Positions 37,648 to 44,851 of a stretch of DNA of 64,000 nucleotides are shown in pieces. The DNA comes from Tigriopus japonicus (taxonomy: Eukaryota > Arthropoda > Copepoda > Harpacticoida > Harpacticidae). Both the position numbers and the translations under genes were made by a program. The stretch spans positions 3,103,556 to 3,167,555 of the forward strand of contig CM021314.1 in the NCBI GenBank assembly GCA_010645155.1, written 5' to 3'. How positions within the stretch are numbered: position 1 is the stretch's first letter; the number at the start of each line of letters is the position of its first letter. The notes below the pieces were generated by a model. That model did not search any database. It had not been told where the DNA came from and saw only the letters and a list, made by a program, of their open reading frames with translations.

Positions 37648-38074
37648 TTAGAGGCTGTTGCCACTGATGTTCCTCTTGAAGGAATCCTTGATGGAGTAGG
37701 GGCATTGGAAGAACTCTTCGCATCCCTTGTTCTGCTCGGCGCGAGAGTTGGCGTCCAAGTATTCGTCAAGGAGTTCCCTCATGTCGTCGGGAAGGCTCAA
37801 GACCTCGAGGTACTTGGCGTATCTAAAGAAAAGACCACTCAATTAGCATCCCATGAGTCGACATTTTGCCTTTAAATGACTTTCAACTTACTGGAATCCA
37901 GCCTTGAATTTCTCGGCAGCGGCACCATAGTAGTCGGGTTCCCTCATGACTTCACAGATGAGTCGCTTTTGGCACTCGAGGTCGTTGTAGTCGAATCGCT
38001 CATAGAGTTCTTGGAGCATGGAGATCCATTGGATGATGTTGAGCGAGTTGAACTCGAAGCCATCGTTGGAAGAC
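37648..38074 (-). CDS. Shared C-terminal exons of an alternative-N-terminus gene: four-cysteine DM4/12-like domain
   Basis: Exon 38074-37892 follows TTTTTAG and ends CA|GTAAGT. Exon 37822-37648 follows TTCTTTAG and ends with TAA at 37648-37650. Read in the frame set by an upstream Arg codon (AG or CG plus G), they encode about 118 residues. NSLNIIQWISMLQELYERF is followed by DLECQKRLICEV, then KYLEVLSLPDDMRELLDEYL and GCEEFFQCPYS. The paired Cys spacing C-x(5)-C and C-x(5)-C and the CE and CP context resemble the arthropod DM4/12 domain, whose function is unknown. The two exons lack their own start codon and signal peptide. Four upstream exons with matching phase can supply them. Confidence 0.75.
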
Positions 38075-38410
38075 CTAAAAAGCAGTTAAGCATGTGAATT
38101 GCCAAGCTCGCGTCAGATTGGCGGGTGCTCCCGTCACCTAGTATACCGCATTCATAGTTTTCGATTCGACGCTTGTGTTCAATATTGTATATAGACTCTC
38201 ATTGTTAAATCTCGTGGAAAAATATAGACATAAATAAACTCATACAATCTTGCTCTCTTGAAGTATGAACTGCAGTGGCAGGTGATAAAAAAAGGTGTCA
38301 GCTTATTAACCATGATGATAATTGGAAATGATTCTGATGCGTAATGTGCCAATGGTGAAATAGGATGACTTGCTGATGTTCGTTCCAATGTCCCTGGTTG
38401 CGGTACTCAC

Positions 38411-38949
38411 CGTCTCTTCAAGCGAGAAGGGACACCAGCGGTGGTCTCAATAGGAGACCAGTCATAAGTCATTTCGCTTCTACGAGTTGCAGTCGGACTT
38501 GTCGGAGGAGGAAAATCAGTTTGGCCTTGCTCGTAAACGCGAGCCCAATCGGAATAGGCTTTCAGGTATTGCTCGTACTCTCGATTGTATTGAGACTCCT
38601 CGGCATATTCTACACATTGCTTTGAACAATCACAAAACTCTGATCCCGAAGCCAGATTATCGGCATGAGGCTGAGTGAAAAACGAGGAAGAGGCTCTCGT
38701 TTCTAAAGGTTCCTCCTCTTCCTTCGGTTTGGGCCAGTTCTTCACGGCCGCTGCAGACAGAAAAGCTCCCGCCAAAAGAATACCAGAAGAATAGGCCAAG
38801 GAGGTGTTTGTAATAAAGCCTACTGGATTGGCCCTAGGGAAGTGTTTTTCGCTGAAGAAATTACTGAATGAAAATGGGTTCGAGGCTGCGATTGTCGCCA
38901 TGCCGACCAAGCATAAGACTGTTGGATTCATCTTGGCTTACTTTTTGAC
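38411..38949 (-). CDS. Alternative N-terminal exon D (longest, cysteine-containing)
   Basis: Acceptor TTTCTATAG lies before 38949, the ATG is at 38931, and the donor is ACG|GTGAGT after 38411. It encodes 173 residues plus two bases: a leader (MNPTVLCLVGMATIAAS), a helix (TSLAYSSGILLAGAFLSAAAV), an acidic stretch (KPKEEEEP), a Cys trio (FCDCSKQC) and a Tyr/Glu-rich segment. It ends SRLKR plus CG. Joining to 38074 gives Arg and keeps frame. This is the nearest of the four to the shared exons and the least similar to the others. Confidence 0.72.
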
Positions 38950-39461
38950 CTATAGAAATCAAAATCAAAGCGGGCGTTGAATATTTACAAAAAAAGCCAT
39001 CTGAGGACAAACATCTGATGTGGGAGAGAAAGAACCATCTGTTTCTCACTTGGGAAAGGTCGTACATGAATGTGTGCAATGCGTGAAGTCATGCTCTAAA
39101 CCTTGAACTTGTTGATGTCCTTTCGGTACATCAGCCAGAAGTGGAAATATTGCACTAGTTCAAGCTGAAAGTCCGACATTTTGCCCTGTAATCCTCTCGT
39201 ATTTAAGTACTGTGACGGAGAAAATCTCCAAAATCAGTGGCCCGGATAGTTTTGTGATGAATATCAAACGTGTGCAGAGAATGAATGCTCCAAGGGAGAA
39301 TGTGACCTAAACACTTAGTAGGATATATCCAACTATACATAGACTAGGTTGTATGAGTTTATCATCCTTCCTGCCTTCCACATGCTAAACCCATATTCTG
39401 CGTTAAGGCTCCGAATGAGCGTGAAGACGGGAAATCGGCGGTTTTGTCGTCAGATCCTTAC

Positions 39462-39824
39462 CTGGCATATTGTTGGTAGCCATAAGAGTTGCTGCTGCCA
39501 TAGCTTTGACCGTAACCGTAGCCAGTGTTGTTTTGCGATTCAAGGAACAAGTAGTATAGTGCAATTGCAACGGCACCGATGATGGCTGCCGCAACCAGAG
39601 CATAAGCTAAAAGTGTGGCATTCACTTGAACTAAACTAGATGTGAAGTTGACAAAGAACAATCTAGCGTCTGCCCCGGCATCACTCAGATCCTCAAATTC
39701 TGAGAGCTCTGAAGCATAAGCTGTGGCGGCAAACAAGAGAATGACTGCTAAACACTGATAGACTTTCATTTTGAGGTTCCTTTTGGGTGTGTCACGGGTC
39801 AACGTAAGGGATCAACGAAAGTGG
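39462..39824 (-). CDS. Alternative N-terminal exon A (Gly/Tyr-rich tail)
   Basis: A likely acceptor (CTTGTTACAG) precedes 39824, the ATG is at 39769, and the donor AG|GTAAGG follows 39462. It encodes 102 residues plus two bases: signal peptide (MKVYQCLAVILLFAATAYAS), acidic segment, ADARLFFVNFTSS with an N-glycosylation sequon, one membrane helix (AYALVAAAIIGAVAIALYYLFL) and a tail GYGYGQSYGSSNSYGYQQYAR. The exon ends in the same phase as B, C and D. Confidence 0.72.
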
Positions 39825-40621
39825 CTGTAACAAGATTAGAGGAGAATATGCTGGTGAATGGTTGATGGGCGACTGCCAACCCGTTCCAGGGTGGTGGTTC
39901 TCTCTCACCAAACAGCAATTGCTCCAACAACTATGAAAAGTTGGTTGTGACGGTCACAAGAATTATGAATGCTCAACAGCCGGGATTATCCTTTTTGTGG
40001 GAAGGGATAGTTGATTAACTTCACTTGTACAGGTGGTACAAGACAAACAACAAAAAAAAAGATTCAAGTAGCTCTACCACCACTACTACTTCTCTTGATC
40101 TCATACACTCACTGACTGGTTGGTTGTCAAATTCGGTCAAACCTTTACAGATGCCCTCAAGTTCATACAACTGACTGACTGGATTGGCGGAATGCCCGCC
40201 GATTTCCTCCCCGACCAAAAACGATCATTTAAATGCCCCGGGAATGCCCTGTGGTAAACATATTAGACACTCACTCGGCGTGCATGGCCATCTGATCTAG
40301 AAGGCCAGATGGTTCATGTTCTATCACCGACCGCTGGGACTAAGAAATCAAGCGTGGACAATGTTAGAACACGGACGGATGGACGAACAGATCAGACTTT
40401 GTACAGCAGTGTTAATTCCGAGCCAAAGCCCGCTTGTCAGCGTAAAAGCAAGGCAGATATGATGTAATTGTGGTTGTTGGACTAGCCAATCACCCCGTGA
40501 AACAAGGACGATTACCCTTAACATCGCCTTGATCGCAATATTCAGTATGACCTCAACCTCTCGTTACTGTCAAAGTCAAGCATGAGCCACAATAAAGGTA
40601 GTACATATATTGGTGACGTAC

Positions 40622-40958
40622 CGGTAGACAGGATAAGCACGCTCAGAGTTTTGATTTTGTTGCTGATAATACTGGGCGTAGTCTCTATCGGGAACGGGCT
40701 CTGTACGGGACGTATTGCCGTAATAGTCATAGAAATACAAGCCCACCCCCACGAAGAGAACCAAAACAGCCCCCACTGCAATCCCATATAGCACAGTCGT
40801 GGCATTGAAATCGGCCAAAGTTCGGGCGTACTGAAACTCGGGAACATCCTCAAAGAGGAGCTCGCTAGTTTGAGCGGAACTCTGTCCCAGAGAAAAGCAA
40901 GAAATGAGAAGCAAAAGTACAAGCTTTTCCACGACGGAGAAGGCGGCCATCATCCGAC
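40622..40958 (-). CDS. Alternative N-terminal exon B
   Basis: Acceptor CCCATTTAG precedes 40958, the ATG is at 40953 (a second at 40950), and the donor CG|GTACGT follows 40622. It encodes 110 residues plus two bases: signal peptide (LVLLLLISCFSLGQSSA), then YARTLADFNATTV with a sequon, a helix (LYGIAVGAVLVLFVGVGLYFY) and a Tyr/Gln-rich tail ending AYPVYR. The architecture is the same as in A and C despite low identity. Confidence 0.72.
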
Positions 40959-41337
40959 CTAAATGGGGTATATACTTGATATGAGGAGAAGGCAGTGGTG
41001 GTGTGTGGGGGAGTTATTGTGATTCAAAGGTATGGTGGACCATGTAGACAAACATCTGTGGTCGAGGTAGAGAATGGGGGAAATTAGTTTTACTGGCAGA
41101 GAAGTGACGGGAGGGGAGGGGGAAAGGATGGATTGTGCAATAGTTTAGAAACTCTGAGTGAGCGATCGAGCCACGCCTATGCTTGAAGGAATCTACTTAG
41201 AACTGACGGCCTACTGACTGCGACATACACATTGAACACAAGCGACTCAGCGATAACGTACGTGGTAGGTATTGTTTGTTGTTGACATGATTTTACCCTG
41301 GAAGTGCTCACACGGCGAGCGAGTCTCTGATCCTTAC

Positions 41338-41638
41338 CTATATTGAGCATATTGTTGCTCATAGTTTGCGTATTGGTCGTTGCCGTATTGCTCATAGCCA
41401 TTTCTGTTGTAACCAGTGGAACCACCCAAAATACCACCGGCATAAATAAGATAGGCAATAACTCCAAGAAGAATGAGGGCGCCGATAATTGTAAGGCCGG
41501 CAGCGGTACCAGAGGTGTTCATGAACAGGAATCTGGCCTCGTTCTCGGCTAATTGGCTGTCATCGAAAAGTTCCTCAGCAAAGGCTTGCTGGGCGGCCAA
41601 GCCGAGCACAACACAAGCTATCCAGAACTTCATGATAC
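41338..41638 (-). CDS. Alternative N-terminal exon C
   Basis: Acceptor GCGTTGTTTGTAG precedes 41638, the ATG is at 41633, and the donor AG|GTAAGG follows 41338. It encodes 98 residues plus two bases: signal peptide (MKFWIACVVLGLAAQQAFA), NEARFLFMNTSGT with a sequon, a helix (LTIIGALILLGVIAYLIYAGG) and a Tyr/Gln/Asn-rich tail ending YEQQYAQYR. It is closest to exon A in the ARxF-N motif and tail. Confidence 0.72.
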
Positions 41639-42246
41639 CTACAAACAACGCGAGAATGGGAGCGTTAACTGTTGTAGCGTTGCTCTCTTAGGCTTGGAAT
41701 AATGAAATCCTAGACACTACCAAGTTCAGAAGGTATGACCACCAAGTGTCAGCAGTAGTCACCAAAACGTCAATACTTGCAATAAGTAAGTCAACGAGAG
41801 AGTCCAAGCCAGTTTCAAAGTTGGGACCATGCAAATGAGTGTTTGTTTGTCGTTTGAGATGGGCATACTACCATAAGCAAAACTACCACGGTTTAGTGCA
41901 ACTAGTAATTTAGGTTTTGGGTTAGACGAAGCGATCTAACACCCAAAAGAGGTGTTAGGCCCCTACCGATACGAATAATCTCGGAAAGATCTTGAGCCCT
42001 CGAAAACTGGTTCCCATTTTTGAAACTGGGGATGTGTGTGTTGACATCCAGAATACTCTCATGCCATTTCTACTGCTTCGACTAAAGAAAAGCTTGCGTG
42101 GCTGGTATTGATTGGAAGGAGACGTATCAAAGGCGGCCTTCTGCTAGAGGTGAGCTACGAAGTGACAAAAACCATCCCAAAGTAATAAAAAATAGCTTTG
42201 CCCCCAAAATAGGTTCCATATTCCCAAACCTACGCCTTGAAATCCC

Positions 42247-42277
42247 CCACCTCTCTCTCTCTCTTTCTCTCTCTCCT
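42247..42277. repeat. CT/GA microsatellite
   Basis: CTCTCTCTCTCTCTTTCTCTCTCTCC-type dinucleotide tract upstream of exon C. Confidence 0.85.
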
Positions 42278-43004
42278 TCCCCGTATGGTTTGGTTTGCTT
42301 GGAGAGGGCAATCACCCTCTCCAGTCTTGACCTAAGTAGGTCAAGCTTATGGTCGGCTAGAAAAATGGCCTGTTTCTTATCGCAAAGGGAGGACGAAAAT
42401 GAAAGAACTACGTTTTGAAATTGGTTGGTTGCTTGGTTGGTTAGCGTTGAGGGAGTCGAATGTTATGTGTGTCTGGTAGTCTAAAGGTAGGGGCTTAAAA
42501 AAGGCAGGGTTTAATACTCTGGTCTCAAGAAAGTCGGACGAGGAGGACAAGTGAAATAGTCGACGAGACCTACACAAGCAGCAGGACTACCAATACCATG
42601 CACACACCGCAGAAAAAACTTTTTCTTTCAGGCGATCCACAATGTGGCCACTTTTCTGCCGAAGACCATCCTAGTCCTAGTTCTAGTAAGTGATGTGGGC
42701 AAGGTACAGAAAGTGGACGAGGAACAGGAGGAGCAGCAGTAAAATACCAGTCCGTGAGGTTATAGTATGTATGGTAGGTAGACGGGAGGAGGTTACAAGG
42801 TGCTCTTACTACCCAGTCTTCGTCGTGTTCATCATCAGCAACAGCATGATCAACCTGTGCGGACCTGGCTGGTGGTGGGCCATCTGTGGACGGCTTCAAC
42901 TTTCACTTGAAACCATAACTAGTAACTGGCGACTGCCATCATTTCCTTGAGCCGGCTACTTAAAGCCAAATGAAATATTTCGAGACCGGCCATCTAGGGG
43001 TGAA

Positions 43005-43319
43005 CGCAGTAGTAGCGGTAGTAGTAATAGTAGTAGTAGTGGTAGTACAAGCTCATTTGCGCTTCGGGCCTTCGATGAATGATCGTAATGGAACACTCAC
43101 TGAGATCCTTCTAAATAAGAAATCTTGCGCAATGAGATTGTACAAGAGGAAGGCCTCTCGTTTGGACAAATAAAACCAACAAAAGAGGAATGGTAGTTTC
43201 AGTAACAGGAGTTGTGGTTGTAGCTGTAGCTGTAGTGGTGGTAGTAGTAGTAACAGTAGTAGTGGTAACAACAACAACAACAACATTAGAAGTAGTAGTA
43301 GCAGTGGTAGCGGTGGTTG
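43005..43319. repeat. Trinucleotide microsatellite cluster (GTA/GTG, then ACA)
   Basis: Two tracts, 43005-43048 and about 43195-43319, are built of GTA/GTG triplets. The second switches to ACA triplets (43268-43284) and back. All frames stay open because the period is three; the apparent low-complexity proteins are artefacts of the repeat. Confidence 0.85.
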
Positions 43320-44713
43320 AATCTGATTGCATAGTATTTGCATTGTCCCAAATTGAACTACTGGATTTCGAGCCTTAGCCAAGGCCCGAATTACAAGGAT
43401 TGTTTCTGGCTGCTCAAAAAGGACCTGGCTTGTTGAACATTGCATTCTGGTGACCTATTGCTGCGTGGTGATGATACATTTTGAAATTGACATCGTTAAA
43501 ATGAAGACAGAGAAAGAAAGAGACATTGAGACAAAAAAGAACAAAAACGAGACGATAAAACAACATGCAACTGAATAACACTTTGGTTCGTCACTTGCGC
43601 GATGGTCGTTCATCTGGAGAATAATTTCAAGCTTTACTGACCAACAGTGACCTAGAAGACCATTGAAATTGTGTGCATACATATCAAGTGAATTACCAAA
43701 GTGCGCACGTAAGGAGTAGGTACGTTGTCGGTGATTGATTTGACGATGTGAAAGTGAATCTTCGTCAAATCATGGAAGATTTGCCAACAGATTGCTTAGA
43801 CATCAATGAAAGGTGATTAATTGATTGGTGGTGAAGTGCGACAGTTCAGTTTTGAACTTGCGACAGGTACAGTGCTCAATGTTTTTCAGATGTTTGTCTA
43901 CAGTCGAAACTTGACATCAAACTATAGCAGGTTTTGAATCAGTGGCAAAGCATGTTGAAAAGTGCTATGATGTAGTCGAAAGAAAAGTTGCCGTCCAAAA
44001 TTTTGCGAGCAAAGCTATTGGTAAATAAAGGAATGGTTTGTTACATTACAATCGATGGGTAACAAATGTTCCCGAAGTCATGTGCATGATGTGCCGATTC
44101 CCTTTCTTGGCAGAATTGAAGAATTGTGGAAGAAAAGCGGCGGACGCTTTTTTCCAAAGAAATTTTCTCCTTTTCTCGAGCTCTCTGTCAGATTTTCCAT
44201 GTGGCGGCAGCAACAACGAGAAGAAGTGAACAGTTGGAAACAATTTTCTATGGCAACACGTGTTGTGAACACTCCGTCAGTGATGTGAGTCTCTAGATCA
44301 TGAGATATGCGCCATAAAAGCGGAGGATCTCTGGTAGATTTGCAGGCTTTTCGCAACGAGACAACCCAAGCAAAAATGGAACGCCCAAGTCACACTGGAT
44401 CCAACTTGGAAAACGGCTCTCAAATCACACATCTCAATCACTAGATTCTCATCATCCATTTCTGGAGCCTTCATCCAACACAACTGTTCCATTGCAAACG
44501 GTGCACTGTTTTCAACACTCATTGTGGCACTGGGACTAAAGGTCACTGGTTTTTTCTTTTTCTTTTATGGTTCGTGCTGTTGCCGATGATGTTGTCGTTG
44601 CTGCTGTCACATCACAATCTTTCAATTCGTACCAAGGAGGATCGTCATCCACAAAGTTTCTCTGCTTCATTTTAAGGATGTGGCTGATTGGAGCTCTGTG
44701 CTTTGAGACTTAC

Positions 44714-44851
44714 CTGATGAAAGATGTCCGTTTTCTCCACCCAAGAAATGAGAAGCTACACAGGTCTTTACTGTCTGTCACAGTTTTACTGAGTGACTTC
44801 AGATATGTAGGTGAAATGTATTTATACTGGCCCCAGGAAACTGTGACGTCA
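44714..44851 (-). promoter_or_regulatory. Candidate TATA/initiator promoter with CRE and leader exon
   Basis: Read on the minus strand, the palindromic CRE TGACGTCA lies at 44844-44851, TATAAATA at 44819-44826 and an arthropod-type initiator TCAGT at 44788-44792. This is about 36 bp downstream of the TATA start, slightly long. From there a leader of about 77 nt without ATG runs to CATCAG|GTAAGT, with the donor after 44714. A transcript starting here could splice to any of exons C, B, A or D. The promoter call rests on motif spacing only. Confidence 0.5.

Follow-up and report, generated by a model that had tools for sequence, protein, structure and literature searches.

A Tigriopus japonicus locus predicted to join one of four alternative leader-and-anchor exons to a single DM4/12 domain

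Mutually exclusive exon clusters are found in Dscam1, which includes two alternative transmembrane exons, and in muscle Mhc, and UGT1A and the clustered protocadherins are variable-first-exon loci. Here we describe a locus on the minus strand of a 64,000-nucleotide (nt) stretch of the Tigriopus japonicus genome (assembly GCA_010645155.1, contig CM021314.1, positions 3,103,556 to 3,167,555; this whole stretch is called the window, and positions are given in its numbering). The locus is very probably one gene, in which one promoter serves four alternative leader-and-anchor exons, named C, B, A, and D, on one DM4/12 domain; we place more confidence in this gene model for A and C than for B and D. 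As in Dscam1 and Mhc, constant exons flank a tandem set of exons in a common phase, of which one is expected per mRNA. Unlike in those genes, the alternatives bear the start codon and the signal peptide and are strongly diverged from each other, and docking/selector pairing was not found in the parts tested. Alternative N-terminal coding exons on a constant 3′ part are a feature shared with UGT1A and the protocadherins, but at this locus each alternative has an acceptor, and a single promoter and leader appear to serve all of them. Alternative exons are ordinary in principle; the content that is swapped here is unusual, and it is old. Alternative N-terminal exons for a DM4/12 gene were not found in the literature searched, and a search of open-license papers by domain and gene name returned no paper describing this gene or its isoforms.

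The alternative exons lie at 41338..41638 (C), 40622..40958 (B), 39462..39824 (A), and 38411..38949 (D), followed by shared exon 3 (37892..38074) and shared exon 4 (37648..37822), all on the minus strand. Exon C contains an ATG at 41633, a signal-like segment, an NTS sequon, a membrane helix, and a tail rich in Tyr, Gln, and Asn. The same layout was seen in exon B (ATG at 40953), in exon A (ATG at 39769, core RLFFVNFTSSLVQVNAT), and in exon D (ATG at 38931), where a long tail with an RLKRR end follows. A preliminary description of this DNA had assigned to each of the four an acceptor, a start codon, a hydrophobic leader, a helix, and a same-phase donor, and re-reading the splice signals from the minus strand confirmed the assignment: the acceptors of C, B, A, and D are TTGTAG, ATTTAG, TTACAG, and CTATAG, and the phase-2 donors after 41338, 40622, 39462, and 38411 are GTAAGG, GTACGT, GTAAGG, and GTGAGT, respectively. 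Because the exons end in AG (C and A) or CG (B and D) and shared exon 3 starts with G, an Arg codon is formed at each junction. The in-frame Arg junction to 38074 proposed earlier was present in all four spliced products, which comprise 217 (C), 229 (B), 221 (A), and 292 (D) amino acids (aa). The boundaries of shared exon 3 read TTTTAG/G at 38074 and A/GTAAGT at 37892. This exon encodes the first part of the DM4/12 domain with cysteines 1 and 2, and exon 4 encodes the second part with cysteines 3 and 4 and carries the stop codon at 37648. The tandem alternative exons in a single phase between constant exons have the arrangement of a mutually exclusive exon cluster. As to the earlier statement that the shared exons lack their own start, no in-frame ATG precedes the domain, so that part stands; in-frame ATGs do exist inside it.

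The DM4_12 motif is described in PMC12825958 as a 115-aa motif of unknown function with four conserved cysteines near the C-terminus, and planthopper Osiris 17 and 24 are described there as combining a signal peptide, a transmembrane region, and DM4_12. When the spliced C and D isoforms were submitted whole, and A and B as N-terminal modules only, isoforms C and D scored 27.7 and 25.5 bits against PF07841 (DM4_12; cut-off 22), in line with the earlier designation of the shared domain as DM4/12-like; shared exon 3 alone scored 19.2 bits, under the cut-off. The shared domain is in this respect like insect Osiris 17/24 and arthropod DM4/12 proteins. Unlike in Osiris proteins, a DUF1676 match was absent from the submitted isoforms in the Pfam comparison. 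The four cysteines (C133, C139, C194, and C200 of P0001, the T. californicus protein described below) did not vary among 40 aligned C-type proteins. Searching the T. japonicus genome (194.85 Mb, 158 contigs) with spliced C gave matches solely at the three exons of this locus, which agrees with the reported absence of a second copy of the shared exons, and the A, B, and D modules gave one strong match each.

The junctions of C and A with the domain were borne out by proteins and transcripts of other copepods, as the preliminary description had proposed for alternative N-terminal exons. A homologue search with the C isoform matched 550 proteins, of which the best 120 were listed and provide the C-type counts, and a search with the A and B modules returned 70 proteins. 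The combined set held 191 proteins, 177 of which could be split at the Arg junction and 14 of which could not. Over its full 217 aa, the C isoform shared 97% identity with T. californicus LOC131879455 isoform X3 (P0001). By N-terminal motif, 67 of the 70 proteins from the A and B search were A-type, and 61 of these 67 carried DM4/12 residues; P0188 was a further, truncated A-type protein. A-type modules joined to the domain were found in Lepeophtheirus salmonis (P0178) and in many environmental proteins. In a EukProt transcriptome, isoforms i1 and i3 of TRINITY_DN252_c0_g2 were A-type (P0175) and C-type (P0090), respectively, with identical last 119 residues and with first 100 and 97 residues, respectively, that differed in type. 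Since P0175 matched Caligus rogercresseyi P0190 exactly across 61 N-terminal and 97 C-terminal residues, the Trinity source species is probably Caligus rogercresseyi. Among named proteins, C-type occurred in the harpacticoid Tigriopus, and A-type in the siphonostomatoids Lepeophtheirus and Caligus, and the Trinity set contained both; the environmental sequences are mostly nameless, and none was assigned to a copepod order. The comparison supports C and A as alternative N-terminal exons of one gene, so that at least two of the choices are shared with relatives as far away as salmon lice. Five A-type modules (P0130, P0131, P0149, P0164, and P0189) continue beyond the Arg into unrelated residues (e.g., ARYV or ARLV). 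Because they become unrelated after the Arg, the end point of exon A seems to be the same in other copepods, and these proteins would represent read-through of the exon A donor in genomic contigs.

Trees were built with A/C labels taken from the N-terminal motif, ten unlabeled rows being called C and one A by eye. Domain identity was counted without gaps among domains of equal length: 26 of 55 A-type domains were identical to some C-type domain, several of the 26 being near-copies, and 18 of the 126 distinct domain sequences occurred with both A and C N-termini. In the domain tree (172 rows, 55 A and 117 C; P0002 and rows of other lengths were excluded), which rests on few columns and contains many weak forks, the A/C label needed 40 changes compared with a shuffled mean of about 43 (79 and 90 of 500 shuffles were as low), and the well-supported branches forced 26 changes. 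In the N-terminal tree (173 rows), A and C were split by one change on one branch, a result that is partly built in, as the label derives from the N-terminal motif; B and D fell on long branches without placement. This is the pattern that alternative exons of one gene would predict, unlike that of two old paralogous genes. The A- and C-type proteins of other copepods could also be paralogues homogenized by gene conversion, with the T. japonicus arrangement as a secondary collapse. Such a history is compatible with the protein data alone where a species' genome is unseen, but we judge it very improbable given the 18 sets of identical domains, the two isoforms of one Trinity gene, and the confinement of C-query matches in the T. 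japonicus genome to this locus.

Upstream of exon C, a TATA box (TATAAATA, 44819..44826, minus strand) lies 30 nt upstream of TCACTCAGT at 44796, and slightly downstream of 44851, the outer bound of the preliminary description. It precedes a putative 5′ leader exon at 44713..44794, which is untranslated, lacks an ATG, and ends at the donor CATCAG/GTAAGT; its start is approximate and is placed from the TATA spacing. The box is the one TATAWAWR match on the minus strand between 37600 and 45200. By base counting, about one match would be expected by chance in this interval, so that the evidential value lies in its position. The leader stretch is single-copy in the genome. Its reading, SLSKTVTDSKDLCSF, resembles extra N-terminal residues of relatives (e.g., SLSDSVTDESEICVF), and for the C-type proteins P0057, P0066, and P0078 and the A-type protein P0174, only 0, 0, 1, and 1 of 1000 random stretches of the window, respectively, matched as well. 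The three C-type proteins are near-copies and represent one observation; P0066 and P0174 have a common 16-residue leader block with 12 identical residues. Some environmental proteins seem to include translated 5′ untranslated sequence, and the two N-terminal types seem to follow a common leader, the A-type side being represented by one protein. One promoter with cis splicing is therefore favored, and the suggestion of a common leader gains from the occurrence of this single-copy leader's sequence ahead of A- and C-type proteins elsewhere. The intron that follows, of 3 kb, contains simple repeats rich in GTA, GTG, and AAC at 43010-43330 of the window (plus strand), as seen by eye.

The same evidence bears on two other ways of reading the upstream acceptors. 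The exons, or some of them, may be first exons with their own promoters, as in UGT1A and the clustered protocadherins, the acceptor before the ATG being unused or used by C only; in keeping with this, they have their own start codons, as variable first exons do, and exon A has a longer 5′ part, with 55 nt before the ATG. However, an acceptor lies directly upstream of all four, the sole TATAWAWR match is at the leader (although promoters without a TATA box are possible), and elsewhere the leader peptide stands ahead of C-type proteins and of one A-type protein, so that we regard separate promoters as unlikely. The acceptors had also been suggested to receive a trans-spliced leader. Spliced leader (SL) trans-splicing exists in calanoid copepods (PMC4664967), but the account given there reports no SL hits in harpacticoid data sets, and the present leader is single-copy and located upstream in cis rather than in a separate SL RNA gene. 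It was also unlike the three copepod SLs tested among the six in PMC4664967 (326, 283, and 347 of 500 shuffles scored as high), and trans-splicing is disfavored to the point of being barely credible.

Inclusion of two alternative exons in genomic order reached a stop before the domain in all six pairs. When all four were skipped, the first ATG was out of frame, and the in-frame ATGs all lay inside the domain, with no signal or helix. As pairs run into stops and skipping leaves no in-frame start ahead of the domain, only single choices would yield a full anchored protein. By motif content, 180 of the 191 proteins had C or A alone, one had B alone, one (the gene model P0122) had C and B, and nine lacked all three motifs. 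Successive alternative exons are separated by introns of 379-797 nt, which makes a simple steric block unlikely. The minimal model is a filter by reading frame and nonsense-mediated decay acting over unregulated or factor-regulated splicing.

Several results weigh against this interpretation of the locus. Stops upon double inclusion are also probable by chance. When the first 800 nt of the leader intron, or the intron from D to the shared exon, was taken as docking sequence and paired with the 200 nt upstream of each alternative exon, docking/selector RNA pairing in these parts was no better than in shuffled sequence: the best common sites had −13.7 and −12.9 kcal/mol, compared with −13.0 to −16.4 and −12.2 to −15.9 kcal/mol, respectively, in 11 shuffles. 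The leader matches at 0-1 of 1000 are four among 43 scored N-terminal extensions of at least 12 residues; a fifth extension, P0162, reached 2/1000 with a low score, and many of the remaining extensions are signal peptides. Chimeras can arise in environmental assemblies, and on visual inspection P0062 seems to be mixed. As for exons B and D, the searches with the A and B modules and with the D module found no protein joining B or D to the domain, and the D search returned the window's own sequence only. Nor did these searches return an annotated A- or D-type protein of T. californicus, although the name "isoform X3" implies further isoforms. Finally, the gene model TCAL_16958 (P0122) of T. californicus runs from C into a portion of B and continues past it, which reflects either a prediction error or real double inclusion; P0121, nearly identical to P0122 and derived from a 12-kb contig, likewise reads beyond the B donor.

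These gaps raise the question of whether only C and A are functional alternatives, with B and D decaying or separately used. Besides the missing B- and D-joined proteins, such a restriction would fit the absence of relatives of D in the search and the weakness of its helix, which has a hydropathy peak of 1.74 compared with 2.52-2.62 in the other three. On the other hand, most of exon B is conserved in TCAL_16958, including the terminal Arg, and D retains the full layout with a correct donor and acceptor. Shuffling the residues of exon D regenerated that layout in 0 of 20000 trials, and its hydrophobic peaks at residues 4 and 45 and its sequon at residue 42 occupy places like those of exon C (1, 45, and 39). 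We therefore consider the restriction to C and A rather improbable, and the use of B and D as alternative exons likely.

The modules also stood out from their surroundings. A scan for an acceptor, a nearby ATG, an N-terminal hydrophobic stretch, a sequon, a helix, and a phase-2 donor together, with thresholds chosen after the four exons had been seen, found four matches on the minus strand of the window, all at this locus, and none on the plus strand; no match occurred in 20 mononucleotide shuffles of one strand. Open-frame length was rejected as a line of evidence, as the longest run reached at least 117 codons in 253 and at least 176 codons in 16 of 500 mononucleotide shuffles of the region. 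A looser scan of ten other genomic regions (L028-L037) found no similar array, but it was insensitive and missed N-terminal modules visible on contigs C29 and C123 (L036 and L037).

In the mechanism that we propose, transcription would start at about 44794, about 32 nt past the TATA box, and the untranslated leader, ending at 44713, would be spliced to one of C, B, A, and D. The start codon, the signal peptide, the sequon for glycosylation, and the membrane helix would all come from the chosen exon, and the DM4/12 domain from shared exons 3 and 4, to which that exon would then be spliced. Exon choice would in this way exchange the membrane anchor together with the segments on either side of it and leave the domain unchanged. 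The most likely effect of the choice is to tune the position of the domain or its membrane partners by tissue or stage. If the signal peptide is cleaved and there is a single helix, the sequon would be luminal and the domain cytosolic; the domain would lie outside if the helix inserts the opposite way or if D is cleaved after RLKRR. More tentatively, and with the odds somewhat against it, anchor swapping from a single promoter may predate the split between Tigriopus and the salmon louse, with exons including D added in Tigriopus; a furin-like protease could cut at RLKRR and free the domain, and anchor choice would then set localization or release. An AlphaFold2 model of P0001 had low confidence (mean predicted local distance difference test score 55.8, predicted template modeling score 0.37). 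A PDB fold search gave 0 matches at E ≤ 0.001, and a sequence search gave two weak matches only (best E 0.009, profile positions 26-82). Because the model and these matches were too weak, no function was taken from structure.

The pairing of one domain with exchangeable anchors, of which two have been retained in distant copepods, offers a direct way to probe the role of the anchor, and the locus is a compact, testable case of exclusive choice among exons that each bring a start codon and a signal peptide. Other such loci may lie hidden, as at least one automatic annotation (TCAL_16958) seemingly mishandles the array by fusing C to part of B.

The PF07841 family in this genome is larger than this gene. 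Fourteen matches were found at E ≤ 10, 13 of them outside the locus, and nine of the 14 were above the cut-off; the exon at this locus was among the five below it. Some of these matches (L002-L015) were clustered, at about 11.20 Mb on contig C1, 2.84 Mb on contig C10, and 9.34 Mb on contig C7, and close neighbors could be exons of the same gene. The A module had two weak relatives elsewhere, L021 (1366-1938, plus strand; E 0.0017) and L022 (1327-1758, plus strand; E 0.0044), with N-terminal modules similar to A and C in which RFFFFNLS or RFLFSS is followed by a helix and a Gly-rich tail; the frame of L022 extends to RRFKR. Both are probably the N-termini of other members of the wider family. 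The ENA-derived protein P0002, a relative of 292 aa, has two DM4/12 domains separated by a C-like membrane segment that lacks a signal peptide, and may represent a tandem gene, a read-through, or an assembly join.

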